From Gammaproteobacteria bacterium (GTDB taxonomy: Bacteria > Pseudomonadota > Gammaproteobacteria > Nitrosococcales > Methylophagaceae), in assembly GCA_014859375.1 (NCBI GenBank), contig JACUUH010000013.1:1-50301 (forward strand): a stretch of DNA of 50,301 nucleotides, given 5' to 3'. The notes under the pieces are model-generated. The model was not told the DNA's origin and did no database searches. It saw nothing but the letters and a program-made list of their open reading frames with translations. Below are positions 305 to 21,335 of this stretch, piece by piece (position 1 is the first letter of the stretch; each line of letters opens with the position of its first letter). The position numbers were made by a program, and so were the translations under genes.

Positions 305-3066
305 TCACTAATCACTCCTTTGTAATTATTTTCACTCACCATTTGTAAACCTGTGTTGGCGCTGTATTCCCATGTCAATAACTGTGCAGCTTTGTTTTGA
401 TCTGATGTCCATGCTTGTGCAAGCCAGCAACCAGTTGAACTTTGCTCAAGTGCTAATAACAATGACCATTTACCCTTGTCAGGCAGGGTTTCCAGTACGC
501 GGTCATATTCAGCCAATTGATTGTCAGTAGCGGGCAATTTCACTTTGGCAATTAACCGCTCGGCAATTTTTACCGTGCTATAAGCCCACGCATGATTGCG
601 TTTTACCCAAGGTACTAAGCGATCATTCTCCCAACGCGCTAAAAACACATTGATACTATGCTCACCTAACCGCGAAGGGGTTTTGGCTTCACTCCACCAA
701 TCCATTACATCGCCACGCTTATAGCCAGATACCAACGTAAGCGTGTTGTTTTTGGCATGACTGGCGTCGGCCATTTGCTGGCCTTGCACAGTTAAATTCG
801 CTTGCTGCAACCCCGTTGGAATTGCTGAGTCATCACCAAAAACGGATTCAATTAAATGGCGAGAGTCATGCGGCATAGTGAAGCTACCTGACTGCAACAT
901 TTTGGCAGTTAACCACAGCTGGCCGTGATCGGGATACACAAACCCCGCTTTAGGCAATACGTTTTTTACCCACTTTTCTGAAGGCTCATCTGTCCACTCG
1001 GGAGCATAAACCCATAAATAAGGTTTACCACGTTGGTCAACCGCACCATCTGTCAATAACCGATTACCTTGAGCATCTCTAATATGACGGCGCAACCGTC
1101 CTGCTCTTTGCACCAATCGGTCTATAGGTGCAAGATCAGAAATAAGCAAATCAAAATCTACATCTAATGATTGTTCAATAACTTGAGTAGCAATAACTAA
1201 CTGGCCTTTACGCAACTCATGGGTACTGGATTTGCCAAACTTATGAAGAACTAATTCCTCTGCATCTAAGCGATCGCTCAAACAAAAACGTGCATGAAAT
1301 AAAGTGATGTTCTCAGCGGGAATTTCATTCTCAAATAACGTATGAACCTCTAATGCATCGGCAATAGTGTTACGAATCCAGCACACACATTGCCCTGCAT
1401 CTAATGCGGCTAGCACCGCACTTTTTATTTGAGCTAGATCGTGCTGATAATTCACTGCAACAGTGCGAGTTACTTCTTGGCGTGTATCCAAAGGCTCTTG
1501 ATGCAACTGATTTACATTTGTTTCTTGCCACCAAGTGGCTAAAGGGTAAGCATGCTCAGAAATTGTTGGGCAGGAAGCACCTCGCCCCTTGGCATAAGCA
1601 CCCAATAGCTTCTGCTTCATATTCACAGGTAGAGTTGCGGACAACAAGATCACACTGCCGCCAGCCCTAGCATGAAATTCTAATAATACTTCTAATATGC
1701 CCTGCATATAGGCATCACAAGCATGAACTTCATCCACAATTAACACTTTACCAAACAAACCCAGCAACCGAAGTGATTGGTGCTTACTGTGTAAAACCCC
1801 CAGTAACGCTTGATCAATAGTGCCTACGCCAACTTGCGCGAGTAACGCACGCTTATTGTGATCGGCCAGCCATGCAGTGCAGCGCGCGCTAGCGGTTTCA
1901 TCTTTTTGTTCGGAGTCATTTTCTGCAATAATTGTTTCCGAAAACTCTTCCACGAGGCTACGGCTTCCATGTGCCAAAATCAAATTTGCGTTACCAGCAA
2001 ATAACTTTGGATACACATTGGCAACCCGCTCATACATTGCATTTGCAGTGGCCATTGTTGGTAAGGCCACAAAAATTCCATCTGCATTACCTGATTCCAT
2101 CAAACGATATGCCAAGGTAATGGCAGCCTCGGTTTTACCTGCACCAGTTACATCTTCCAACAGAAATATTTGCGGAAAGTTTTGAATCTCAACATTAACT
2201 GCCCATTGCTGTAATGGTGAAGGGGTATGAATAACAGGGAAAAGATCATTAAAACGCAAACCCTGCGTAATCTTACAAGGAACAACGCCGCTATCGCTAA
2301 GCGCTTCTTTAGCTTTTAACTGAGCTATAGCCCAATAATCTTGTAGTGGAAAAGCTTGGTTGTTATAAAGGAAATATTTTGTATTTGAGCCCAGCCAATC
2401 AGCTAAAACTGCAACACCCGTAAACCACCAAGACAAGAATTTACTGACACTTTCAAACTGTATAGGTGTTAATTGCGAGCACAGATTCTTTGCGCCTTCT
2501 GTTAAAAATAATGTCTGTAACTCTTCAATAAAGTCCTGAATTGCCCTGCGGTCTTTCTTGCTGAAATAATCATCGCTGGGATAATTCGACGATGCAGCCT
2601 TGGGCGGTTGGCCGTGATGCCCCGTTACTGCCCGCATCCAAAAATCCAAGCTAGTTTGCTGCGCATCAACAAACCAGTTTTCATCAATAATCTGATCGAC
2701 CAATCGATCATTCCAATACCACTGCCCCAATGAGTCATGGCGTTCATTATAGTTTTTTTCCAGATTGGGCTCACGCCCTTGCAATTGCTCGAACAGTTCA
2801 ACTTTTTGTGATTGAAATGCCTCGCTAAACTTACCTAGATCATGCAATGCTAACCAAAAACCAGCCCAATTTAACCAATCCTCTTTTTTACAATTTAACT
2901 GCTCACAATAAAATTGCGCCAGCGAATAATGCTGAGATAGATACTCAATACCCACTGCTGCTACATCCAAGCAGTGATACGGCAATAGGTGATAATCCGG
3001 TCCGTCACGTTCCAAATCATGCTTGGCTTTGCCCCAATAACGAAAATAAGTAGCTGTTTCAGTCAT
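301..3066 (-). CDS. cas3: CRISPR-associated nuclease-helicase Cas3 (type I-E)
   Basis: This protein of 921 residues joins an HD nuclease domain to a superfamily 2 helicase. Visible in order: H31; the HD pair in 'ALHDLGK' near residue 75; 'GHHGQ' near 149; Walker A 'TGAGKTEA' near 307; DEVH box near 445; motif III 'SATLP' near 475; and the late motif 'LVQRAGRLRRH'. Cas3 unwinds and degrades target DNA after Cascade binding, acting in the cytoplasm. ATG at 3066 is chosen; a GTG directly before it (3069) is possible. No strong Shine-Dalgarno sequence is seen. The 3' end overlaps casA by 4 nt, and the WYL regulator gene lies 68 bp upstream on the same strand. All catalytic motifs appear intact, so the gene is probably functional. 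Confidence 0.95.
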   Translation of the reverse strand: MTETATYFRYWGKAKHDLERDGPDYHLLPYHCLDVAAVGIEYLSQHYSLAQFYCEQLNCKKEDWLNWAGFWLALHDLGKFSEAFQSQKVELFEQLQGREPNLEKNYNERHDSLGQWYWNDRLVDQIIDENWFVDAQQTSLDFWMRAVTGHHGQPPKAASSNYPSDDYFSKKDRRAIQDFIEELQTLFLTEGAKNLCSQLTPIQFESVSKFLSWWFTGVAVLADWLGSNTKYFLYNNQAFPLQDYWAIAQLKAKEALSDSGVVPCKITQGLRFNDLFPVIHTPSPLQQWAVNVEIQNFPQIFLLEDVTGAGKTEAAITLAYRLMESGNADGIFVALPTMATANAMYERVANVYPKLFAGNANLILAHGSRSLVEEFSETIIAENDSEQKDETASARCTAWLADHNKRALLAQVGVGTIDQALLGVLHSKHQSLRLLGLFGKVLIVDEVHACDAYMQGILEVLLEFHARAGGSVILLSATLPVNMKQKLLGAYAKGRGASCPTISEHAYPLATWWQETNVNQLHQEPLDTRQEVTRTVAVNYQHDLAQIKSAVLAALDAGQCVCWIRNTIADALEVHTLFENEIPAENITLFHARFCLSDRLDAEELVLHKFGKSSTHELRKGQLVIATQVIEQSLDVDFDLLISDLAPIDRLVQRAGRLRRHIRDAQGNRLLTDGAVDQRGKPYLWVYAPEWTDEPSEKWVKNVLPKAGFVYPDHGQLWLTAKMLQSGSFTMPHDSRHLIESVFGDDSAIPTGLQQANLTVQGQQMADASHAKNNTLTLVSGYKRGDVMDWWSEAKTPSRLGEHSINVFLARWENDRLVPWVKRNHAWAYSTVKIAERLIAKVKLPATDNQLAEYDRVLETLPDKGKWSLLLALEQSSTGCWLAQAWTSDQNKAAQLLTWEYSANTGLQMVSENNYKGVISE

Positions 3067-3134
3067 CACAATTGGTCTGTTCCAATCTCATATGCTTTCA
3101 TCCTCTCACCCTTGAGTCCTAAATACCGATACTT

Positions 3135-4097
3135 TCAAAAATATTTTTTCAGTGTTGCTTGCAGTTCTTGTTTTACTTTGTCACGTAACGATTCAGGGCT
3201 TAACACTTCAATATCACTGCCAAAACGCAGGATGTCGCGGATCAGTTCTGGGGTGTCACTGTAGGGTACAGATAGCAAATATTGGCCTTGCTCTGTCCAT
3301 TGGCTTTGCTGATCGGGGTGCCAACTTTCACGACTAACGCGTTTGGATAGTGATTTTGAAAATTTAAGTTCGGCGATATCTTCAACTTGTCCGGCAAAGA
3401 TGCCGTAACCCGGTGTTACGTGAGCATTAAGTTGTTCGGTGTTGATATCTAGGGCTTTGTCTGTTGTTTGTTTGCTGCGGCAAATGGCGTCAATAGAGAA
3501 GGTTCTTAATGCCTCGCGCTTATGACACCATGCGTCCAAATACCAGTTATCACGGTAGTAAACCAGGCGTTGCGGGCTGATGATGCGAGTTTCAATGCTA
3601 TCGGTTTTCCACTGCCAGTAGTCGATTTCCAGTTGCTGTCTGTTGAGTAGTGTGTGTGCGACATTGATGAAATGATCGGGTTCGCAGAGGCGTTGCCATT
3701 GTGTGGCGACTTTGATGCGGTGCTGCCAGTCATGCTGACTGATATGTTGTTTGGCGAGTAATTGATGTAGGCGTTCGGATACGGGATGTAATAGTTGTTT
3801 GACGACTTCGGGCTGAAGTGTTTCGCTGAGTTGTTCGAGCAGGGCGAGGGAGACGATTTCTTTAGCGCTGAACCACAGGCCAGGCAATTCGTAGGTTTCA
3901 CCTGATTTCAGGTCATAAAAATAACCTTCGCCCTTACGATTTTTGAGCGGTGCACCCAAAACATCACACATGAAATTTCGGGCAATATTGAAGGTATTTT
4001 TGCTAAATTCAAACTCATTGAGAATGGCGTTCAGCGGCACTGGATGACGACGGTTGGAAAAAAATTTGTGTAATGCATAAATCCGTTCAAAGTCCAT
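3135..4097 (-). CDS. WYL-domain transcriptional regulator next to the cas operon
   Basis: This 320-residue protein has an N-terminal winged-helix-like region (start MDFERIYALHKFF, typical of YafY/WYL regulators: '-RI--LH--'). A central WYL domain spans about residues 135-205 ('IISPQRLVYYRDNWYLDAWCH', 'LRTFSIDAI'), followed by a C-terminal WCX-like extension. WYL proteins are thought to sense nucleic acid or nucleotide ligands, and they often sit beside CRISPR-cas and other defence operons as regulators. It is on the same strand and directly upstream of cas3 with a 68-bp gap, so it may be the first gene of the operon. A 20-bp dyad lies 21-40 bp upstream of its ATG and may be its own operator. 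The ligand and the direction of control cannot be read from sequence. Confidence 0.85.
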   Translation of the reverse strand: MDFERIYALHKFFSNRRHPVPLNAILNEFEFSKNTFNIARNFMCDVLGAPLKNRKGEGYFYDLKSGETYELPGLWFSAKEIVSLALLEQLSETLQPEVVKQLLHPVSERLHQLLAKQHISQHDWQHRIKVATQWQRLCEPDHFINVAHTLLNRQQLEIDYWQWKTDSIETRIISPQRLVYYRDNWYLDAWCHKREALRTFSIDAICRSKQTTDKALDINTEQLNAHVTPGYGIFAGQVEDIAELKFSKSLSKRVSRESWHPDQQSQWTEQGQYLLSVPYSDTPELIRDILRFGSDIEVLSPESLRDKVKQELQATLKKYF

Positions 4098-4117
4098 TCT
4101 CGTTATCCTTTAACAAA

Positions 4118-4137
4118 AAAAGTACCTTAGTACTTTT
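4118..4137. promoter_or_regulatory. Perfect 8-4-8 palindrome upstream of the WYL gene, candidate operator
   Basis: Seen directly: arms AAAAGTAC (4118-4125) and GTACTTTT (4130-4137) separated by CTTA. It lies 21-40 bp upstream of the WYL regulator start on the minus strand, where a promoter or operator would be expected. The arms are too A/T-rich and the position is wrong for a terminator of a gene reading into it. An autoregulatory binding site controlling regulator and cas genes is an inference. Confidence 0.45.
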
Positions 4138-4241
4138 AAGTTCAGTTCTGATTGGCCTTAATCGATAGTATCAAATGTGTAAGATTTTCATAAGTCCAAT
4201 TATTTATCGATAGCCAGCTTAACAAATAAAATGACTGGTAA

Positions 4242-10007: not shown

Positions 10008-10037
10008 TACTGTATCTCTTGAATTTATAATACTGTA

Positions 10038-10070
10038 AGGCACTTTCATTTTATAGAGATGGAAGTGCCT
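10038..10070. terminator. Hairpin after the dienelactone hydrolase gene
   Basis: AGGCACTTTCAT (10038-10049) pairs with ATGGAAGTGCCT (10059-10070) with one mismatch and a 9-nt loop. It lies 31 bp past the stop codon. The T-run that follows is weak, so it may be a factor-dependent terminator or an mRNA-stabilising hairpin. The remaining DNA to 10214 shows nothing else clear. Confidence 0.45.
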
Positions 10071-10214
10071 CCTGCTTACTACTCTGAACTCACATAAGAT
10101 GAGTTAGCCGTACAACATTCTCTCATTAAACAAAACCTGTTATTTAGTTTTGTTTTTCAGCTTTATTTCAGGTTCATCTTCTATGCTTTAGCCAAGTTCA
10201 TTAGGAGACGAGCC

Positions 10215-10781
10215 ATGAATACCTCAAAAATTAAAATCTGGGATTTACCCGTACGCATTTTCCATTGGTTACTTGTGGCATGTTTTGCCACGGCTTATTT
10301 GACTGAAGATGATTTTATGACCATTCATACCTATGCTGGTTATACGATTATGGGATTACTGTCATTTCGCATTATATGGGGAATTATTGGTCCACAACAT
10401 GCCCGTTTTTCTGACTTTGTTCAAACGCCAAGTTCAGTGTTGGCCTATCTCAAGGATATCTTTTATAACCGAGCTAAACGCTATTTAGGCCATAACCCTG
10501 CCGGTGGTGCCATGGTCATTGCCTTGATAGCCAGCCTGTTACTGACAACGATTACTGGCTTGGCCGCCTATGCTACTGAAGAAGCTGCTGGGCCGCTTGT
10601 TAGTCTGATGGATATGACACCTAATTTTATTTATGACGGAGCTGAGGATGTGCACGAGTTTTTTGCAAACTTAACTCTGGCCTTAATTTTCTTTCATATT
10701 GTTGGTGTTGTCATCGCCAGTCTATCGCACAAAGAAAACCTGGTTAAAGCCATGGTCACTGGCTACAAACAGTCAGAATAA
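10215..10781 (+). CDS. Cytochrome b561-family membrane protein
   Basis: This 188-residue protein has about four membrane helices (near residues 12-29, 37-55, 93-116 and 145-168). It also has the family's paired histidines: His17 in 'FHWLL', His38 in 'IHTYAGY', His143 in 'VHEFF' and His156 in 'FFHIVG'. These should bind b hemes in the inner membrane. It begins a run of plus-strand genes with SHP-type and diheme cytochromes, matching the known cytochrome b-SHP-DHC cluster. There the membrane cytochrome is thought to pass quinol electrons to the periplasmic cytochromes. The start ATG 10215 is supported by AGGAGA upstream. It is spaced 24 bp from the next start and is probably co-transcribed. Confidence 0.9.
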   Translation: MNTSKIKIWDLPVRIFHWLLVACFATAYLTEDDFMTIHTYAGYTIMGLLSFRIIWGIIGPQHARFSDFVQTPSSVLAYLKDIFYNRAKRYLGHNPAGGAMVIALIASLLLTTITGLAAYATEEAAGPLVSLMDMTPNFIYDGAEDVHEFFANLTLALIFFHIVGVVIASLSHKENLVKAMVTGYKQSE

Positions 10782-10805
10782 CGCATGCTATTACAGGAGA
10801 TTACG

Positions 10806-11210
10806 ATGAAAAAACAGACACTAGTGTTAGCCAGTTTATTAGTCGCTATTCACACACCATTATTTGCAGGTGAACAATTAGAATCAACAATTGAGCTTTA
10901 TCAACAGCAAGGCAATTTAAGCTTTAGTGCTGAGGCTGGTAAGGCCCTGTGGAATCAAGAAATAACACACAAACAAGCTCCAGTCACTCGAAGTTGTGCC
11001 AGTTGTCACGGCAGTGATGTCTCACAATCAGGCAAGCATATTAAAACAACCAAGGTGATCAAGCCTATGTCACCAACCATCAACCCTGCCCGTTTTACTG
11101 ATCAGGCAAAAATCGAAAAATGGTTTGTTAGAAACTGCAAATGGACATGGGGTCGTGAATGCAGTGTTCAAGAAAAAGGCGATATTTTGCGTTATTTAAG
11201 TCAACAATAA
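10806..11210 (+). CDS. shp: SHP-type monoheme cytochrome c (DUF1924 family)
   Basis: This 134-residue exported protein has a signal peptide of about 21 residues (MKKQTLVLASLL...FAG), a heme-attachment motif CASCH at 64-68, and the C-terminal block 'RNCKWTWGREC' with Asn110, Cys111 and Cys119. In the Rhodobacter sphaeroides heme protein SHP, an Asn near mature residue 88 is the sixth heme ligand and leaves on reduction to allow O2 binding; Asn110 here would be about mature 89. The Cys pair could form a disulfide. AGGAG at 10795-10799 sets the ATG at 10806 rather than the in-frame ATG at 10785. Its partners are the cytochrome b561 before it and the diheme cytochrome after it. Confidence 0.87.
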   Translation: MKKQTLVLASLLVAIHTPLFAGEQLESTIELYQQQGNLSFSAEAGKALWNQEITHKQAPVTRSCASCHGSDVSQSGKHIKTTKVIKPMSPTINPARFTDQAKIEKWFVRNCKWTWGRECSVQEKGDILRYLSQQ

Positions 11211-11229
11211 TGGTTGTCAGGAGTTTATT

Positions 11230-11784
11230 ATCAAAAAAAGTATCATTATCGGTTCAGTTATTATTTCGTCAGCAGTAGCATCACTTGCCTATTGTAGTGG
11301 TGGTGGAGAAAATGAAAGTGCTAAATGGTTTAAACCTCAACTTGATGTGGCTCCTGTGACACATCAGTTATATAAAAATGAATGTGCCAGCTGTCACATG
11401 GGCTATCAACCAGGACTTTTGCCTGAACGATCCTGGCAAAAACTGATGTCAGGTTTAGACAACCATTTTGGTGATAACGCTGAACTTACAGCTGAATCCT
11501 ATACTGCTATACTCAACTATCTTACTGATAACGCAGCAGATAAAAGTGATTATAAGCGTTCTCGTAGAATTACTAATTCACTTGCTGCCGATGACACGCC
11601 ATTACGAATTACCGACACTGACTATTTTAAAAGAAAGCACCGTGAACTATCATTAACAGCGATCACTCATAATGCCGAAATTGGTAGCTTCAGCAACTGC
11701 ATCGCTTGCCATCGTCAAGCTGATAAAGGGTCATTTAATGAAAATGAAATCAAGATCCCTGGCGCTTTGGGTAGATGGGATTAA
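11230..11784 (+). CDS. dhc: Diheme cytochrome c (DHC family) with a non-canonical start codon
   Basis: The protein has about 184 residues with two heme motifs, CASCH (52-56) and CIACH (157-161), and the DHC signature 'QPGLLPERSW' followed by 'LDNHFGDNAEL'. It would accept electrons from the cytochrome b and pass them to SHP in the periplasm. The frame is open from a stop at 11197 but has no ATG, GTG or TTG before GTG 11347, which lies past the export signal and conserved 'KWFKPQ'. AGGAG at 11219-11223 sits 6 nt before ATC 11230, the same spacing used by the preceding gene. Starting there gives IKKSIIIGSVIISSAVASLA, a good signal sequence. ATT at 11227 is the other option. Start codon ATC/ATT is inferred; a sequencing error is possible. 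Confidence 0.82.
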   Translation: MKKSIIIGSVIISSAVASLAYCSGGGENESAKWFKPQLDVAPVTHQLYKNECASCHMGYQPGLLPERSWQKLMSGLDNHFGDNAELTAESYTAILNYLTDNAADKSDYKRSRRITNSLAADDTPLRITDTDYFKRKHRELSLTAITHNAEIGSFSNCIACHRQADKGSFNENEIKIPGALGRWD

Positions 11785-11787
11785 ACA

Positions 11788-12084
11788 ATGAAACCGCGCC
11801 ATTATCTAATCGCATTGGTTTTATCCTTAGTGTCACTGTCTGCATATTCGGACAGTGATAATAAGCGTGCCCGCGAGTTACACCTTCGTGGTGAAATAGT
11901 GTCTCTGGAAAGTTTGTTGCCAACCATACGTCAGTATGGTGATTGGCCAATACTGGAAATCGAACTTGAACAAAAGCACGATGTTTTACTCTATGAAATC
12001 GAGTTGCTTGACGACCAAGGTCGTGTTCAAAAACTTAGGTTTGATGCTAAAACAGGCAAGGAAATAAAACGTGCTAAAAAGTAA
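11788..12084 (+). CDS. PepSY-domain periplasmic protein
   Basis: This 98-residue protein has an N-terminal signal (MKPRHYLIALVLSLVSLSAYS). A single PepSY-like unit follows: 'ARELHLRGEIVSLESLLPTI' then 'EIELEQKHDVLLYEIELLDDQGRVQKLRFDAKTGKEI'. Small PepSY proteins often precede PhoP/PhoQ-like two-component genes and are proposed periplasmic modulators of the sensor. It starts 3 nt after the diheme cytochrome stop and ends 18 nt before the response regulator, so it links the cytochrome and regulatory genes in one transcript. A role as accessory sensor is inferred from this position. Confidence 0.85.
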   Translation: MKPRHYLIALVLSLVSLSAYSDSDNKRARELHLRGEIVSLESLLPTIRQYGDWPILEIELEQKHDVLLYEIELLDDQGRVQKLRFDAKTGKEIKRAKK

Positions 12085-12102
12085 GCCTTTCGGAGTGTAT
12101 TG

Positions 12103-12771
12103 ATGAGATTACTTTTGGTTGAAGATGATCCTCGTCTTGGTCCAAGACTGAAACACGATCTGAGCAATGCTGGTTTTGCAGTTGATCTCGTCACTAATGG
12201 TATTGATGCTGAATTTCAAGGTATTGAAGATCCATACGATCTTGTCATTCTCGATTTGGGCTTGCCACAGCGATCCGGGCTTGAGGTTTTGCGAAACTGG
12301 CGTAAACAAAATATCAAATTACTGGTCATTATTGTGACTGCTCGTGATGATTGGTCAGACCGTGTTGAAGGTCTAAAAGCAGGTGCCGACGATTATATTG
12401 GTAAACCCTTTCATACCGAAGAGCTATTAGCCCGAATCGATGCCTTATTACGCCGTAGCCAAGATCGTGTTGAACAACATATCAACGTAGCTGGACTAAC
12501 ACTGGATCAAGAACAACAGCAAGTCACTTTATCCTCGGGCATAAATGTTCCACTGTCAGGCATTGAGTTTCGCCTTTTACGTTATTTTATGATTCGCCCC
12601 GGTAAAATTTTGTCTCAAACACAATTGGGCGAACATATCTATGAGGGTGACTCAGACCATGAAAGCAATGTAGTTGAAGTACATATTAGCCACCTTCGTC
12701 AAAAAATCGGCAAAGACTATATCAAAACACGGCGTGGTCAAGGTTACTTATTCACTGAAGCTGCACAATGA
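12103..12771 (+). CDS. Two-component response regulator, OmpR/PhoP family
   Basis: This 222-residue regulator has a receiver domain with acidic pair Glu7-Asp8-Asp9, phosphoacceptor Asp51 in 'LVILDLGLP', Thr79 and Lys101 in 'GKPF'. A C-terminal winged helix follows ('IEFRLLRYFM', 'VEVHISHLRQKIG', 'IKTRRGQGYLF'). ATG 12103 is preferred over TTG 12100 because GGAG lies 7 nt ahead. Its last four bases overlap the sensor kinase ATG (ATGA), so the pair is translationally coupled. The upstream cytochrome genes are the natural candidate targets, though no binding site was identified. Confidence 0.95.
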   Translation: MRLLLVEDDPRLGPRLKHDLSNAGFAVDLVTNGIDAEFQGIEDPYDLVILDLGLPQRSGLEVLRNWRKQNIKLLVIIVTARDDWSDRVEGLKAGADDYIGKPFHTEELLARIDALLRRSQDRVEQHINVAGLTLDQEQQQVTLSSGINVPLSGIEFRLLRYFMIRPGKILSQTQLGEHIYEGDSDHESNVVEVHISHLRQKIGKDYIKTRRGQGYLFTEAAQ

Positions 12772-14102
12772 ACTCACTTGAACGTCGCTTACAAGCAGGT
12801 CTGGCTGTTAGCCTGATCGCTTTAATGGTGTTATTAGGTTGGGCACAAGTATCAGTCATCGAAAAACTCACTGAACGTTTCATCGAATCTCGCCTGGAGC
12901 ATGACAGTCAGAGTCTACTTGCCGCAATCGCATTCGACCCAGAAGGCAATGTAAGTCTCGTCAACACCCAGCTTACTAATGTATACGCTCAACCCTATTC
13001 GGGGCATTATTATCAAATCGTCACCTCGAATAATGCCGAGCCTATTCGTTCACGCTCATTGTGGGATGATACATTAGAATTTGAGCTTCCTAGTTTAGGC
13101 CGTAACAACACTATCGAACAAGATGGTCCTGACTCTCAATCATTACTGATTCATATTGCCAGTTATCAAAAAGAAAATCGTATTGTCACCATTGCGGTTG
13201 CAGAGGATATTTCGCCGTTGCAACAACAGTTACGCTTTTACAGCACATTATTTATTGGCATTGCCATTATTGCTTTGTGTCTTTTAGTTCTAATTCAACG
13301 CATCATTATCAAAACATCATTTCGGCCACTCCGTCATGTGCACGATGAAGTGTTGAAATTATCAGAAGGTGAACAAGGTCAGTTAACTGAAAACGTACCC
13401 AGCGAAGTTAAACCATTGGTCGAGGCCGTCAATCATCTGCTGTTAGTTATGACGCAACGCCTTCAACGCTCACGTAATGCCTTGGGTAATTTGGCTCATA
13501 CTTTAAAAGGGCCATTGATCCTGCTCACACAACTTTCAAATGATGAAAAAATAAAACAACATCCCGATATTTTTAATGAGATACAAGAGCATACAACCAG
13601 AATGCAACAAATCATTAATCATGAATTGAAACGAGCGAGGCTAGCTGGTTCAGGCACACCAGGCCAACGGTTTGTACCGTCTAAAGAAATTCCCAATCTG
13701 ATCAACGTACTCAAACTGATGTACCGGGATAAATCACTTTCATTTGAATGTGACATTGCTCAAGGGACGTTTGATGATACCGATAGAGACGATATGTTAG
13801 AACTTATGGGAAACCTATTAGACAACAGCTACAAATGGGCAAACAGCATGATCAAATGTAGCGTTAAGACAGAACCAGAATTGACCATAATTGTTGAAGA
13901 TGATGGCCCAGGTTGCTCAACACAACAGTTGGACTTCATCACCCAACGCGGCATTCGTATTGATGAATCAGTTGCCGGTCACGGCCTTGGACTGACCATT
14001 GTTAAAGAAATTGCCCAGATCTATCACCTTGACTTGCAACTAGACCAATCGCCCACTTTGGGTGGGCTACGCGTTCGATTAAACCAAGCAAAAACAGAGT
14101 AA
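12768..14102 (+). CDS. Membrane sensor histidine kinase (PhoQ-like)
   Basis: This 444-residue kinase has TM1 at about 11-29, a periplasmic sensor region 30-157, TM2 at about 158-180, and a HAMP-like linker. The phosphoacceptor is His244 in 'NLAHTLKGPL'; the ATP-binding boxes are N 'ELMGNLLDNSYKWA', G1 'VEDDGPG' and G2 'GHGLGLTIV'. The dimerisation box 'LAHTLKGPL' is the PhoQ-type variant. It partners the OmpR-type regulator, with which it overlaps by 4 nt. The signal is unknown; with the upstream PepSY protein and cytochromes, a redox, oxygen or metal stimulus in the periplasm is plausible. Confidence 0.94.
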   Translation: MNSLERRLQAGLAVSLIALMVLLGWAQVSVIEKLTERFIESRLEHDSQSLLAAIAFDPEGNVSLVNTQLTNVYAQPYSGHYYQIVTSNNAEPIRSRSLWDDTLEFELPSLGRNNTIEQDGPDSQSLLIHIASYQKENRIVTIAVAEDISPLQQQLRFYSTLFIGIAIIALCLLVLIQRIIIKTSFRPLRHVHDEVLKLSEGEQGQLTENVPSEVKPLVEAVNHLLLVMTQRLQRSRNALGNLAHTLKGPLILLTQLSNDEKIKQHPDIFNEIQEHTTRMQQIINHELKRARLAGSGTPGQRFVPSKEIPNLINVLKLMYRDKSLSFECDIAQGTFDDTDRDDMLELMGNLLDNSYKWANSMIKCSVKTEPELTIIVEDDGPGCSTQQLDFITQRGIRIDESVAGHGLGLTIVKEIAQIYHLDLQLDQSPTLGGLRVRLNQAKTE

Positions 14103-14147
14103 ATAAAACTTTTCACAATTAACTAAACATAGCAGCGAGAACATACC

Positions 14148-14483
14148 ATGAAATCACTCTCAACCTTATGGCTTACAGGCTTGATACTAATCAGCACTAG
14201 TCTGCTTTATGGCTGTGACCAAGATCAAAAAACAGCTCAATTGCCACAACAAAACCAGTCTCAAACTCAAGAAGTGAATGATAAAGATGTCACTGCAAAC
14301 GTTAAACAAGCACTAGGTGATCATACTGAGTTCAAGCATCTCAACATAACAGTCGTCACAACCAAAGGCGATGTATTGCTTACAGGTGAAGTAGATAACG
14401 AAGATCAACTAGAAACTATCACAATGCTGGTTCACACTATTGATGGTGTCCACACTGTACATAATCATTTGCTTACACGTTAG
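14148..14483 (+). CDS. BON-domain lipoprotein
   Basis: This 111-residue protein has a lipoprotein signal ending in lipobox LLYGC (Cys23), a Gln-rich linker, and a single BON domain at about 46-111 ('VTANVKQALGDHTEF', 'LNITVVTTKGDVLLTGEV', 'DGVHTVHNHL'). BON domains bind phospholipid or stabilise the envelope; OsmY and YraP-like proteins are relatives. It follows the kinase by 45 bp and may be the last gene of the cytochrome/two-component unit or part of its regulon. The last 72 bp, including the stop, are duplicated at 28154-28225 with few changes. Confidence 0.88.
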   Translation: MKSLSTLWLTGLILISTSLLYGCDQDQKTAQLPQQNQSQTQEVNDKDVTANVKQALGDHTEFKHLNITVVTTKGDVLLTGEVDNEDQLETITMLVHTIDGVHTVHNHLLTR

Positions 14484-14674
14484 ATGTATTAGAGTCTGTT
14501 TATCTTTAATCTGCAACGAGATTTGGGCTTGTCCAAGGTGAGGATTTTCCAATGTAAACGCAATGATAGTTGCTTCAACTTGTTTGCTGGCCTAAGAAGC
14601 GTCGATCCACTACTAATCAAATCTGCTCGGATCATGGGACTGAGCCTGACCGATCCTCACGAAATTTTAGATAG

Positions 14675-14722
14675 CTAAAACAAAGGTGCTGGATGGCTGT
14701 GCTTATCCAGAACTGAGGTTAA
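14675..14722 (+). mobile_element. Partial MITE copy (48 bp identical to one end of the 32012-32252 element)
   Basis: Bases 14675-14722 are an exact reverse-complement match of 32015-32062, including the terminal repeat tip ending GAGGTTAA. No matching opposite terminus is visible in the gap 14484-14904, so this is a solo or half element. The rest of that gap holds a GTGAGGATT/GATCCTCAC inverted pair (about 14538-14660) of unknown meaning and the terminator at 14816-14865. Confidence 0.75.
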
Positions 14723-14815
14723 ATTAAGTCCTTTATCATGTACCGCTCTCAAACCAATAAATCGAAGCGTTGTCGTTGTGTTTAATAAAACCCGTTCTGC
14801 CAAGGCATTAGCATG

Positions 14816-14865
14816 AAAAAATCAGCCAACAACCAGCCAGGGTTAACTGGTTGTTGACTGCTGAT
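14816..14865 (-). terminator. Rho-independent terminator of the peroxiredoxin gene
   Basis: Read on the minus strand, CAGTCAACAACCAG (14860-14847) pairs with CTGGTTGTTGGCTG (14836-14823) with one G-T pair and a 10-nt loop, followed by a six-T run (14821-14816). It sits 40 bp past the peroxiredoxin stop codon, on the same strand. This is the best-formed minus-strand terminator in the window. Confidence 0.8.
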
Positions 14866-14904
14866 ACCTAAAAGTTGGCACATGCCGTATACGCGGTGAG
14901 AGTA

Positions 14905-15537
14905 TCAGTGTAAATCAGTAAAACGCAGGTATGGTCTTACCGCGTCATAACCTTGAGGAAAACGAGCAGCGAGTTCAGCTTCATCCTGAATCGATGGCAC
15001 AATCACGACCCTATCGCCAGCTTGCCAATTGCCTGGTGTTGCTACTTTTTCGTTATCGGTCAGTTGCAAAGAATCTATCACCCGCAAAATTTCATTAAAA
15101 TTGCGACCCGTACTGGCTGGATAGGTAATGATTAATCTGACTTTTTTTTGTGGATCGATAATAAATAACGATCGTACTGTCAGTGTCGCATTGGCATTGG
15201 GATGAATCATGTCATACAACTCGGATACCTTACGATCAGGATCTGCCAGGATTGGAAAATTGACTGTAGTATTTTGAGTGTCATTAATATCGTCGATCCA
15301 TTGATGATGCTTATCGACAGAGTCAACAGATAAGGCTAATACTTTGACATTTCTTAATTCAAATTCAGCTTTTAACTTGGCTGTCAGACCTAATTCCGTT
15401 GTACATACCGGTGTAAAATCTGCTGGGTGCGAAAACAGTACACCCCAGCTGTTTCCCAACCATTGGTGAAAATGAATGCGACCTTCGGTTGAATCTTGCT
15501 CAAAGTCAGGGGCAGTATCGCCTAATCTGATGGTCAT
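14905..15537 (-). CDS. 1-Cys peroxiredoxin (Prx6 family)
   Basis: This 210-residue thiol peroxidase has the active-site motif 'HPADFTPVCTTELG', with peroxidatic Cys45. The extended C-terminal domain ('PGNWQAGDRVVIVPSIQDEAE') is typical of Prx6 rather than the shorter AhpC group. It reduces H2O2 and organic peroxides in the cytoplasm, and usually needs an external thiol. No second resolving cysteine is evident. The start ATG 15537 has AAGGAGAAAC just upstream on the minus strand. A strong terminator follows, so it ends its transcript; it may be read with the hydrolase gene 27 bp upstream. Confidence 0.93.
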   Translation of the reverse strand: MTIRLGDTAPDFEQDSTEGRIHFHQWLGNSWGVLFSHPADFTPVCTTELGLTAKLKAEFELRNVKVLALSVDSVDKHHQWIDDINDTQNTTVNFPILADPDRKVSELYDMIHPNANATLTVRSLFIIDPQKKVRLIITYPASTGRNFNEILRVIDSLQLTDNEKVATPGNWQAGDRVVIVPSIQDEAELAARFPQGYDAVRPYLRFTDLH

Positions 15538-15564
15538 GTTGTTTCTCCTTGGTTTTGCCTGCTA

Positions 15565-16251
15565 TCAGGCATAGTGTAAAAAAGTATTGTTTATTGCCAC
15601 GGTATTGATCGTTGGGTAAGTTCTGGGTAGTTGACGTTTACGTGAGTTATTCCAGTTACCTAACTGATAAACCTCATCACCTGGCAGCGGCTCTACAGCG
15701 TCAAGCATCGCTAAAACAAAATCCTTGATTAACGGCCATTGACCATAGCCAGATGCGCTATTTATATGACCGGCATTGCCTGCGTTATAAAACGCTAAGC
15801 CCCAATCACGACTCAGTTGATCCGCCTGAACAAGTGGCATCCACGGATCATTTTTACTGGCAACCACTACCCCTAAGGTATTTAGATGCCGGTCAGGCAT
15901 GCAAGCTGCTATCGTTTGTAAGGTGTTTTGGCTGTCATTAATCGGCCCATAAAGCGCAAAACGTTCTGGCGCTGCTGGTGCGACTAATATAACGCCGACT
16001 ACTTTTTCTGGTCGCCATGACGCTATCACGGCACTTACCAAACACCCAAAACTGTGCGCGACCAAAATCACTTGTCCAGAGATACTATCGAGCTGCTTTT
16101 CTAGTGCCTCTGACCAAGTGAACAGTGCTGGTGTCTCCCAGTCGACACCGGTCAAACGTTCACTTTCTGGAAATTGTTGTTCGAGCCAGGTTTGCCAGTG
16201 TTGATCATCACTGCCATGAAACCCTGGCACAGTTAGGATTTTGGTGTTCAT
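15565..16251 (-). CDS. RBBP9/YdeN-family serine hydrolase
   Basis: This 228-residue alpha/beta hydrolase starts 'ILTVPGFHGSDDQHWQTWLE', the family opening. The nucleophile Ser is in 'VAHSFGCLV' (near residue 87), the acid is in 'ASKNDPWMP' (near 155) and the His is in 'GNAGHINSASGYGQWP' (near 181). Bacterial members are small esterases of unknown natural substrate. The extra 30 residues at the C terminus (KRQLPRTYPTINTV...) go beyond the core fold. It lies 27 bp upstream of the peroxiredoxin gene on the same strand. A repeat element occupies its upstream region, so its promoter may be inside or next to that repeat. Confidence 0.85.
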   Translation of the reverse strand: MNTKILTVPGFHGSDDQHWQTWLEQQFPESERLTGVDWETPALFTWSEALEKQLDSISGQVILVAHSFGCLVSAVIASWRPEKVVGVILVAPAAPERFALYGPINDSQNTLQTIAACMPDRHLNTLGVVVASKNDPWMPLVQADQLSRDWGLAFYNAGNAGHINSASGYGQWPLIKDFVLAMLDAVEPLPGDEVYQLGNWNNSRKRQLPRTYPTINTVAINNTFLHYA

Positions 16252-16264
16252 TATGCTGCTCCTT

Positions 16265-16587
16265 GATCTATATACCTGTAATCATTGAAGATGCAGATAT
16301 GGCTAAAAAATTTCGGTTCACCCTGAGCTCTGAGCTCGTCGAAGAGTCAAAGGCTTGGCTTACTTCGGTTCATGGTTCGACAAGCTCTCGGCAACTGCTT
16401 ATCCACATGGATGTGGTGTATGCAGAAGAAACGTCAGGAACGTTTCCTGTCTTGCGTTGCTCTACCTCCTGCATCCATGCAGTCGACCACGAACGGTAAA
16501 AAATCTCGTCACGAACAGCGAAAGTAGGACAAGCTCGTCACCAACGGTAAAAGTAGTAAGCATCTTCGAGTTGATTGGGTATAGATC
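16265..16587. repeat. Dispersed palindromic repeat, long copy (shared with 28841-29006)
   Basis: The ends are imperfect inverted repeats: GATCTATA...GAAGATGC at 16265-16294 and GCATCTTCGAG...TATAGATC at 16559-16587. Inside are CCTGAGCTC..CTCGTCGAAG and GTTCATGGTTCGACAAGCTC, shared with the 28841 copy. This copy carries about 150 extra bases (about 16388-16535), including the imperfect palindrome CAGGAACGTTTCCTG and a second set of CTCGTCAC/ACGGTAAAA segments. It lies between the hydrolase and TOBE genes. No transposase is visible; it looks like a non-autonomous repeat. Confidence 0.7.
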
Positions 16588-16589
16588 GT

Positions 16590-16814
16590 TTATATCTTGC
16601 TGAAACTGGCCAGCGCCACTTCCGTTGATTTGAATAAGGCTATTACTTCAAATCCTGGTTTAAGTCCAAGGTGATCAATTGAACTTGTGGTCACCACCGA
16701 TGTGATAATGCCAGCACGTGTATCAACTTCAACTTCACTGACTACATCGCCACGTTTTATGCGTTTGATCGTGCCTTTAAATTGATTTCGGCTGTTTATT
16801 GCTTTAATGGTCAT
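16590..16814 (-). CDS. TOBE/Mop-domain molbindin-like protein
   Basis: This 74-residue protein is a single TOBE (Mop) domain: 'SRNQFKGTIKRIKRGDVVSEVEVDTRAGIITSVVTTSSIDHLGLKPGFEVIALFKSTEVALA'. Stand-alone Mop proteins oligomerise and store molybdate or tungstate in the cytoplasm; related domains bind sulfate-like oxyanions in ABC transporters. It is the last gene of the porin / sulfate-binding protein run, 62 bp after the binding protein. That position suggests oxyanion handling. The repeat element begins 2 bp past its stop codon. Confidence 0.87.
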   Translation of the reverse strand: MTIKAINSRNQFKGTIKRIKRGDVVSEVEVDTRAGIITSVVTTSSIDHLGLKPGFEVIALFKSTEVALASFSKI

Positions 16815-16876
16815 GTCTATATCCTTTTATTTTTACTATTCGGCCTGACTTATTTCAGGCCGAATTATTGATTGAA

Positions 16877-17890
16877 CTAGTTAATAGAATAGATAGTGTC
16901 AAACACACCACCATCATTAAAATGCTTTTTCTGAGCTTTTTGCCAGCCGCCAAAAGTGTCATCAACTGTGAAGGTTTTCACTTTTGGGAAACGGGCAATA
17001 TCTGCTGGATCCGCGTGTTCCGGTAGGTAAGGACGGTAATAATGTTTTGCTGCTAACTTTTGTCCCACTGGCGAATACAGATAGCTCAAATAAGCCTTTG
17101 AAACCTCTACTGCATTATTTTTTTGAGCATTGCCATCAACAACCGTAACCGGTGGTTCGGCCAAAATCGACACTGAAGGCACAATAATTTCAAACTTATC
17201 TTTGCCCAGTTCATTAACGGCTAAAAATGCTTCGTTTTCCCATGAGATGAATACATCACCGATACCACGTTGAACAAATGTATTGGTCGAACCACGCGCG
17301 CCAGAATCGAGAACCGGAACATTTTTAAAGAGTTTGCTAACAAATTCTTTAGCTTTTTCTTCACTGCCATATTTTTCTTCAGCAAAGCCCCATGCCGCCA
17401 GATAATTCCAGCGTGCACCACCCGATGTTTTTGGATTAGGTGTAATCACTTCAACACCTTGTTTTACCAAATCATCCCAATCTTTGATGCCTTTTGGGTT
17501 ACCTGCTCGTACCAAAAAAACAATTGTTGAGGTATAAGGTGCACTGTTATTAGCCAAACGAGATTGCCAATCCGCTGGAATTTTGCCGGTTTTTTCACCA
17601 ATAGCATCAATGTCATAAGCAAGTGCCAGGGTCACAACGTCAGCTTCCAAGCCATCGATGACTGCTCTCGCTTGTTTGCCAGCACCACCATGTGATTGCT
17701 TAATCGTGACGTTATCGCCTGTTTTTTGTTTCCAGTGTTTAGCAAAAATCGGGTTGTATTCCTGATAAAGCTCACGGGTTGGGTCATAAGATACATTGAG
17801 GATCTCAATGTCTTTCGCCAGCGTATTAGCTGAAGCAATAGCTAGACTTAATGCCAAAGGCAAGGTCTTTAATATAGTTTTTAATTTCAT
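16877..17890 (-). CDS. sbp: Periplasmic sulfate-binding protein (Sbp family)
   Basis: This 337-residue secreted solute-binding protein has a signal peptide ending near 'ASANTLAKD'. Family signatures are '[12 protein letters not shown]', '[13 protein letters not shown]', '[14 protein letters not shown]', '[16 protein letters not shown]' and '[27 protein letters not shown]'. It would hand sulfate or thiosulfate to a CysTWA transporter, but no permease or ATPase gene is in the window. ATG 17890 is preferred over the in-frame start at 17911 because AAGGAAA precedes it at good spacing and the signal peptide then starts normally. The neighbours are a phosphate-type porin upstream and a TOBE protein downstream on the same strand. 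Confidence 0.92.
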
Positions 17891-17931
17891 GATATTTCCT
17901 TTATTAAGCAATAGATTTGCAAAAATTATGT

Positions 17932-19311
17932 TTAAAAATCGATTTGAGCACGGGCAGCGAAAATATCGCCATCCTTACCGTCCAATGCGTTACCTGGACG
18001 ATCGATATCCAGTACCTTGATGTAGTTAGCAGCAAAACGGACGTTATTAGTTGCATACCAGTTGACACCGAAAGTCGCGTTATCCAGCTCACCACCGATA
18101 ATGTCGCCATCAGTCAGATCAGCCGTGCTGTAACGTGCTGCCACTTCCCATGCACCATAACCGCCCTTGCCCACAGCTTTTTTGACTTTGATGCGATCGA
18201 AGATGCCATTTTTGTAAGTGCGTGATTCGCCGGTCAGGAAGTAACTGGCATAGGCATACCAGCCATCAAAGTCTAGGTCTTGTCCCTGATCGCGTTCGAT
18301 TTCAGTGGTGATATATTCAGCCTGTAATGACAAAGGTCCATAAACACCCGCCAATTCCACACCGTAGGAACGTTGTTCATCGATATTTCTAATCTTGTTG
18401 CCAATTTTATCAGTACCAGTATCAATCAGCCTGGCGCCATCAACACCGACTTCTGGACGTGCGCGAAGTCGAATGCTGCTATCAGTATCACCAGCCCAGT
18501 TCTGACGTGCTGCCAGACCGATATGGAGCAAGCCATTATCTGACTTGAATGGGGTTGCAGTGACGCGGCCGATTAAGTTCCAGCCTTCATCAGTGCTAGT
18601 GCTGTCATTTTTCTCATTTTCTTCTGCCGGACCACCAAAACCACCCACGGCAAAGGTCCAGTTATCGCCTTTGGTGTCAAAGCCGATACCGATACGTCTG
18701 TCTGGGGTGAATACATGATTGAGGCCACGTTCAAGGAAAGTCGAATGCAAACTGCTGGTCAAATGCTCAAGTCCAAACGGTGTCTTGAATTGACCGACGG
18801 TGATATTGCCGGCATCTAAACCGGTATATTTGATATAGGCATCACGAATACCACGTGTTGAGGTACTGCCATTTGGCCGAGCAAAGTCATACTGGAAACG
18901 ATAAGCCCAGTCTTTATAGACCTGACCACGCAGATCAAGAAAGATCCGTCTGAAATCAGTGCCGTCGCCACTTGGAATATCGCCATCATAAAAAGCGGCA
19001 TCAGCCTGCAGGCGGCCACCTACTTGAGCGACAAAATCACCATCGGCTGATTCAAATTTAAGACTACGGCCATTGGTTTTAGCAATAACTGCATCTTTGG
19101 TTGCTGCTTTTGTTGTTTTTATCTCTTGTTGCTGTTGGTTTAATTGTGCGTTTTGCTCATCTAACTTTTTGAGCAGAAGGTTAACCTGCTGTTCCAGCTT
19201 TTCGATACGCGCATCAGCATCATTGTTAGCAGCCTGCGCCGCCAAAGGCGACAAGCTTATAAAGCCTGCCAACAGTAAATGCTGTGTTAAAGGTTTGAGT
19301 TTGAATGACAC
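17932..19311 (-). CDS. Phosphate-selective porin O/P family outer-membrane protein
   Basis: This 459-residue protein has a signal peptide (cleavage near 'AAQAANND') and a coiled coil at about 32-70 ('[20 protein letters not shown]'). A beta-barrel follows, ending in Phe ('ARAQIDF'), as expected for outer-membrane insertion. '[25 protein letters not shown]' and '[15 protein letters not shown]' are OprP/OprO family features. Such porins pass anions; with a sulfate-binding protein 41 bp downstream, sulfate rather than phosphate may be the cargo here (inference). The start is GTG 19311 with AGGAG 7 nt ahead. The upstream gap 19312-19619 must hold the promoter. Confidence 0.9.
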
Positions 19312-19619
19312 CGTCTATCTCCTGTAGTTTTGAAGTGCAGGCAGATAGTAGGATTATGGGGTTATAAACCAAACCAATTAAAAACGGATTGTTTATTCAA
19401 TATCGTGTTAAACAAGCCAGCTCAAGTCTTTCAAGCAAATTTCCGGTGTGTAGAATTTTGTTTTAGCGGTTTATTTTTGTGTCATCGCCTGATTATTATC
19501 CGCATGGCTGAGTCAATGATCTGTTTAAAATACGGCTTAAGTTCTATCAATAGGCAGTGTCAGAAATGCGCTTTATTCATAAGGTGCGGGTCAAACTATC
19601 CAATAAAACCAAGATCACC
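19312..19619. other. Intergenic region upstream of the porin gene, no gene seen
   Basis: This 308-bp gap separates the porin start from the stop of the acyltransferase gene, both on the minus strand. It must carry the porin promoter and the end of the acyltransferase transcript. It is A/T-rich, with a possible minus-strand -10 TATAAC near 19362-19367. I see no convincing -35, hairpin terminator or small gene. Confidence 0.4.
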
Positions 19620-21335
19620 TTAACCCGTCAAATAGCGCTTGCGTTTTGATGCCTTAAGTAAACTCAAATCGACAATTACCAAGCCATCAATACAATTTGC
19701 AAAGTTAGCGTCGATGTTAAAATCAACAAATTTAACACCACCTTGTTCACATAAATCAGCATACTGTTTATACAAGGTAGGCACCGTGACATTCATATGA
19801 GTTAATTGCATACGTAATGCCTTGAAATCAGCCTCATAATCTAAACCGGTCACCGTCAGCCTAACCTGATAGTGTTGATCGTCAGTTAATCTATAGGGCA
19901 TACGTGCACTAGCCAGTTGCCGATCATCATTAAAATAATGCTGATAAAAGCTGACTAATAGCGCTTTAGCGCGCTCTGGATAATTATTACTTAAACTGAC
20001 TGGGCCAAATAAATAACGTATATCTGGATAGTGCTTTAAGTAAGCACCGATACCGTACCACAGATAATCAAGACTGCGCATACCCCAATATTTTGGACTG
20101 ACAAAACTACGTCCTAACTCTATGCCTTGCTCAAAAATCGGTACCATTTTATCTGGGTTGTACTCAAATAATTCCTGGCTATAAATACCGCGACTATCCG
20201 TCTTTTCAATCAGTCGTTTTACCTCTGCCAACCGATAGGCTCCTGCAATTTCCAGCTCCTGATCATCCCACAAAATCAAATGGCGATAATCACGATCGTA
20301 GCGATCTAGATCACGTTTTTTACCCGTACCTTCGCCCACTTGCCTAAACGTAAATTCACGTAGACGGCCGATTTCATGCATAACCGCTGAATCTGGTCGG
20401 TAATCAAACAAATAGATTTTTTTACCATCACTGGTTTCACCAAGTAACTGGGCTTGTTGCAATTCTTTTTTTATCGCTCGCCGATCTTGTGGATGCACGA
20501 TAGTTTGTTCTGTTAGAAATAATGACGATTTACCTTTAGCAATCCGATAGAGATGGCGGCGAATAAGCTTGGTTTTTTGCTTTTTAGCAAGAGCAAGAGA
20601 AGCAATAGCTTGATAGGGAATAGCCTCGCCTACTTTCATTGTGATTGTTTTAGATCTTTTATTAAATATTTCATGTGCTAACAGCATACCCGCTAAAGGC
20701 TTGTAGACCATTGAGCTGCTGTAAAATAAAGGTGAATTTCTCGCATTGACATAGATAGGTAAAATGGGAGAGTTGGTTTTTTTAGCAAAACTTAAAAATC
20801 CATTTGTCCACTTGCCATCACGCACACCATTAGGACGAATTCGTGATACTTCACCCGCTGGAAATACAATCACTGCTTCGTCATTATTCAAGCAGTCAAT
20901 AATTCTGGCAACACTGCTTTTTTGCGTTGTTTTATTTAAATTATCTACTGGTAGCAGTAACGCTTCGACCGCTTTGAAGTTCATCAACATATCATTGACG
21001 ACAATCCTGACATCGCGACGAATTTCACCGACCAATTTTAATAAAGCAAGACCATCTAATGCGCCAAGTGGATGATTGGCAACAATAACAACGCGACCTG
21101 TTGCCGGAATATTTTTACGGTCACGATCAGCGATAGCGTAACTGAAATTAAAATGTTCAAGCACTTGCTCCACAAAGTCAAAGCCTTGCAGATCTTGATG
21201 AGTATCGAGGAAATGATTAACTTCTTGCTCATGAGAAAGCTTACGTAATAAACTGATTGTCGGTTTTTTTATCCAAGGACTTTTGCTTTCAAAACCGGGA
21301 AATTTTTGGTGAATTGCATCTTCGATAGTTAGCAT
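19620..21335 (-). CDS. olsF: OlsF-like bifunctional acyltransferase (ornithine/aminolipid synthesis)
   Basis: This 571-residue fusion has an N-terminal PlsC/OlsA-type O-acyltransferase (HX4D in 'VANHPLGALDG' near residue 87; 'VFPAGEVSR' near 157). The C-terminal half is an OlsB/GNAT-like N-acyltransferase ('MHEIGRLREFTFRQVGEGTG', 'DRYDRDYRHLILWD', 'ELGRSFVSPKYWGMRSLDYLW'). This order matches OlsF, which makes ornithine lipids from ornithine in one protein, a phosphate-free membrane lipid strategy. The start ATG 21335 opens on MLTIEDAI, typical of these proteins. It stands alone, with 148 bp upstream and 308 bp downstream. The exact amine substrate (ornithine, glutamine, lysine) cannot be read from sequence. 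Confidence 0.82.
   Translation of the reverse strand: MLTIEDAIHQKFPGFESKSPWIKKPTISLLRKLSHEQEVNHFLDTHQDLQGFDFVEQVLEHFNFSYAIADRDRKNIPATGRVVIVANHPLGALDGLALLKLVGEIRRDVRIVVNDMLMNFKAVEALLLPVDNLNKTTQKSSVARIIDCLNNDEAVIVFPAGEVSRIRPNGVRDGKWTNGFLSFAKKTNSPILPIYVNARNSPLFYSSSMVYKPLAGMLLAHEIFNKRSKTITMKVGEAIPYQAIASLALAKKQKTKLIRRHLYRIAKGKSSLFLTEQTIVHPQDRRAIKKELQQAQLLGETSDGKKIYLFDYRPDSAVMHEIGRLREFTFRQVGEGTGKKRDLDRYDRDYRHLILWDDQELEIAGAYRLAEVKRLIEKTDSRGIYSQELFEYNPDKMVPIFEQGIELGRSFVSPKYWGMRSLDYLWYGIGAYLKHYPDIRYLFGPVSLSNNYPERAKALLVSFYQHYFNDDRQLASARMPYRLTDDQHYQVRLTVTGLDYEADFKALRMQLTHMNVTVPTLYKQYADLCEQGGVKFVDFNIDANFANCIDGLVIVDLSLLKASKRKRYLTG

Follow-up and report, generated by a model that had tools for sequence, protein, structure and literature searches.

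The start codon of infC in E. coli is AUU, and its product, IF3, discriminates against start codons of this type and acts on its own start. In E. coli, translation reportedly begins at AUC with much lower efficiency than at AUG (Hecht 2017). The organization of the SHP operon is described in PMC2909971 as a six-gene layout, in which cytb, shp and dhc stand in this order together with a small ORF, a response regulator and a sensor kinase.

The window, which is the whole stretch of 50,301 nucleotides analysed, carries on its forward strand an operon whose gene order agrees with the layout in that paper. Its cytb gene (10215..10781) codes for a membrane protein of the cytochrome b561 type (PF01292, E 5.3e-28), and its shp gene (10803..11210) for a monoheme cytochrome c (DUF1924/SHP; PF09086, E 1.2e-38) matching PDB 1dw0 (E 1.4e-21), an entry with the structure title "cytochrome c" which we take to be SHP. 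The body of dhc (11233..11784) codes for a leader, two CxxCH heme motifs (CASCH and CIACH in the translation) and a DHC domain that begins at nt 11371, where residue 58 of the frame is encoded. It scores 131 bits with PF09626 (E 5.6e-38), where the curated cut-off is 22.2, and matches the solved DHC structures 3u99 (E 5.8e-30), 2fw5 and 2fwt. A PepSY-domain protein follows (11788..12084; PF03413, 25.5 bits), which from its position would be the Orf1 of SHP operons. The last two genes, 12103..12771 and 12768..14102, are presumably the response regulator and the sensor kinase, to judge by their translations. With shp and cytb as neighbours, as in the published layout, dhc codes for the diheme cytochrome c in an SHP operon of six genes.

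The dhc frame is open from 11200 to 11784 after an in-frame TAA at 11197-11199, and the earliest ATG, GTG or TTG in it is GTG 11347, in agreement with the first-pass annotation. The annotation was equally correct in describing a Shine-Dalgarno sequence, AGGAG (11219..11223), followed after 6 nt by ATC (11230..11232), which is the spacing between AGGAG and ATG in the gene before dhc. A full-length product thus has no ATG, GTG or TTG available, and a properly spaced Shine-Dalgarno sequence precedes the ATC, from which a leader-like sequence is encoded; export of the product is a prediction. In this the gene differs from other DHC genes. PF09626 was matched in 82 of 369 genomes of the class, and among the best 30 loci from these, the window included, 28 of the 29 others were readable at the leader (L144 was not) and start there with ATG (26) or GTG (2). 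GTG 11347 was rejected as the start because it would lose the leader while keeping the heme domain, and because G017, a relative from the same genus, has a conserved ATG upstream. The annotation had placed this GTG beyond both the signal peptide and the conserved region; the former is right, but the DHC domain lies downstream of the GTG. It should be noted that table-11 gene callers restricted to ATG, GTG and TTG would begin dhc at this GTG and lose the export leader.

Only three of 63 genomes of the order carry dhc, namely the window genome, G017 and G019; this is three of 29 in the genus, so that the gene is dispensable there. G017 (also JARGFJ010000068.1) has 90% protein identity and reads ATG AAA AAA AGT where the window reads ATC AAA AAA AGT; G019 (66-67%) has ATG AAA AAA ACA at the same place. 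AGGAG is kept in G017 and is AGGAC in G019. Since both relatives have ATG at 11230, the start position is right and the ATC is a change of this genome: judged by these alignments, 11230 is the ancestral dhc start, and ATC is derived and, among the genomes compared, confined to this one. The annotation had left the choice between ATC and ATT; the position of ATC 11230 was well chosen, while ATT 11227 was rejected, being just 3 nt past AGGAG and having no counterpart in the ATG of the relatives. A fusion of dhc to shp through a frameshift was set aside, as the two are separate genes in both G017 and G019. Further copies were sought elsewhere. One scan of genome_contigs returned the G017 record and a distant copy from Arcobacteraceae starting with ATG. 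An exact-pattern search of viral_contigs gave no independent copy of the locus, one 20-residue match there being taken as chance, and matches to plasmids, all below 60% identity, gave none either.

The comparison of start codons in close relatives had been proposed in the first-pass annotation, and the ATG at 11230 in both is the very result that it had set against its own proposal. On the sequence comparison the ATC of dhc is not a conserved regulated start, and since no relative has it there is no sign of selection for it. The idea of a start codon limiting the level of the protein, as drawn from infC, is not supported by an ATC seen in one genome, although the parallel as such is apt, the infC of this genome itself apparently starting with ATC. 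The other suggestion made there, a lost start codon, fits as an event.

How unusual such a replacement is was judged by comparing 680,837 bases from this genome with 1,183,479 from its sister genome G017, which gave 179 ORF pairs; 156 of these had at least 80 aa and at least 75% identity, some of them probably antisense shadow ORFs. The first start lies in the same column in 129 of the 156 pairs, and at least 15 codons later here than in G017 in 6, dhc included. Only in dhc is the leader aligned and the start codon itself replaced by a non-start. The remaining five were inspected by eye: three share a downstream start, C6:4117 is frameshifted and C6:15138 is cut short. Seven pairs were flagged in the opposite direction; inspected by eye, none showed such a replacement. 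At least 95% coverage was found here for 137 of 145 G017 genes, and in G017 for 141 of 144 genes of this genome. Split frames were flagged three times here, once for a clear frameshift, once in a simple repeat and once in a short case, and never in G017, and besides these there were four in-frame-stop flags each way. The clear frameshift is at G000:C6 ~4124, where a gene that has 573 codons in G017 lacks 2 nt in this genome after a T8 tract and is otherwise 95% identical; it would be an error, a phase-variable tract or a pseudogene.

These figures bear on the possibility, which we consider unlikely, that ATC is a consensus error or the base of a minority strain in a metagenome-type assembly and that the organism has ATG at 11230. 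A single base is concerned, both relatives have ATG, and the assembly is a draft of 106 contigs with an estimated contamination of 2.63%. Furthermore, errors come to light preferentially at such sites because the first reading had searched for anomalies. This is at variance with the small number of lesions, a single clear frameshift besides dhc in 145 G017 genes plus the in-frame-stop flags that occur equally in both directions, and with the position of the ATC in the densest cluster of differences from G017: five of the nine bases at 11224-11232 differ, against 208 differences in the 4448 nt compared, so that a true change has occurred there.

If the ATC is real, it may have switched the gene off. 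A fresh null allele, in which ATG to ATC abolished dhc in effect and there was no time for further decay, is in our opinion doubtful but to be taken seriously. The locus resembles a pseudogene made by loss of its start codon in that a single conserved ATG has been replaced, and differs from one in that no further damage was found in dhc or in the operon: the frame is without stop, frameshift or loss of a heme motif, and the adjoining shp, cytb and regulator genes are intact and constrained. The dN/dS of dhc against G017 is 0.160 (leader 0.147, mature part 0.167), and the values for cytb, shp, PepSY, response regulator and sensor kinase are 0.059, 0.159, 0.138, 0.092 and 0.103. On the window branch, with G019 as outgroup, there are five replacement and two silent changes in dhc and 13 of each in the five other operon genes; the dhc replacements include an S to R exchange immediately behind the second heme motif. 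These counts lean towards decay and are far too few to tell (Fisher p 0.41). The dispensability of dhc in the genus and the frameshift in another gene of this genome also speak for a null allele.

The infC gene offers a yardstick for what an ATC may do. An IF3 match was obtained in 24 of 29 genomes of the genus, the window genome among them (G000:C2, ~18.1 kb, L159; the others are L158 and L160-L181), and 5 gave none. In all 24 the frame contains an invariant ATC GCT ACT GAT, 8-9 nt after AGAGG, and ATG, GTG and TTG are absent from the 16 codons shown. The codon before the ATC varies (ATT, ACT, GTT, AAT) and is a stop in G012. An invariant ATC behind variable codons or a stop, with no canonical start nearby, makes ATC the likely start; from these alignments, infC of the genus appears to begin at a conserved ATC and not at ATT. 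A literature search for infC with an AUC start found no paper. That infC apparently starts with ATC throughout the genus is a useful side result of the analysis. As in dhc, the start is a third-base change from AUG behind a Shine-Dalgarno sequence, and it is plausible that the codon can serve as a start. The two genes differ in that ATC is found in all 24 infC genes and in a single dhc, for which no feedback is known; infC is a special case in that IF3 acts on its own start.

The explanation that we favour, tentatively and as one that may well be wrong, is weak AUC initiation at ATC 11230, giving the full exported precursor at lower yield. In the common ancestor with G017 and G019 dhc would have begun with ATG at 11230, and this would have become ATC in the lineage of the window. 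Ribosomes, many of which would come from shp 20 nt upstream, would still start at the AUC, because AGGAG, its 6-nt distance from the start and the AAA AAA codons behind the start are all kept, and would make less of the exported precursor than they would from an AUG. We infer both the use of AUC and the low yield; the former draws on the ATG with AAA AAA in the two relatives, on the intact body of the gene and on the ATC that is conserved in infC. Provided that the ATC is real and in use, a working gene has recently gone from AUG to AUC in nature, with two ATG relatives at hand, and dhc would test the protein yield from AUC in a wild bacterium, and later loss versus compensation.

A compensating change in the leader was looked for by folding. 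In the 14 nt from Shine-Dalgarno sequence to start the openness is 0.72, which only one of 93 background starts reaches; part of this comes from the changed base itself, and compensation is therefore no more than hinted at. When the third base of the start is masked, 15 and 17 of the 93 are at least as open in the two fold windows, and 12 or 13 when only Shine-Dalgarno sequence and spacer are considered. Over -20..+20, again masked, the figures are 40 and 28, which is not unusual. Under the same masking, G017 and G019 fall close to the median. In this model, openness of the leader as compensation is at most a hint. One could go further and suppose that, after the loss of its ATG, this lineage maintains dhc as a periplasmic cytochrome started from AUC, as infC is, so that both follow the IF3 level and the electron supply to SHP tracks the state of translation, with the more open leader and its five changes as the compensation; we regard this as improbable.

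An out-of-frame ATG at 11210 with the A7 run (11233..11239) behind it had been overlooked in the first-pass annotation. It opens a frame of 22 codons on the forward strand (11210..11278) which overlaps the stop of shp, and a -1 slip on its TCA AAA AAA continues with AGT ATC in the dhc frame. The product, MVVRSLLSKK-SIIIG..., is likewise leader-like. Ribosomes could in this way re-start at ATG 11210 and slip on A AAA AAA into dhc, or the polymerase could slip on the A7 run; even taken jointly the two variants are very improbable. The ATG and a correctly phased slippery heptamer are both present, and the frame is open from the one to the other, but the ATG is absent from G017 and G019, so the arrangement is unconserved, and no stimulating structure lies close downstream (z -0.33; in the 61 nt folded, the first stem comes at position 33). 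Moreover, it is not unlikely that chance alone puts an ATG in a suitable frame within 30 nt, and MKK requires the A7 run in any case. Weak initiation at the ATC remains the reading that we prefer.

Some minor observations concern the surroundings. The SHP operon (10037-14484) is 95% identical in DNA to that of G017, where it lies on a contig of its own of 5970 bases, and the identity is 84% over 14764-20000 and 88% over 2952-4235. Dispersed repeats are found at window positions 14634-14724 and 16269-16586, short pieces of which match many places in G017, several of them at contig ends. A small lipoprotein-like gene at 14148-14483 has a dN/dS of 0.86 against G017 (4 silent and 12 replacement changes), its neighbours having 0.06-0.16.
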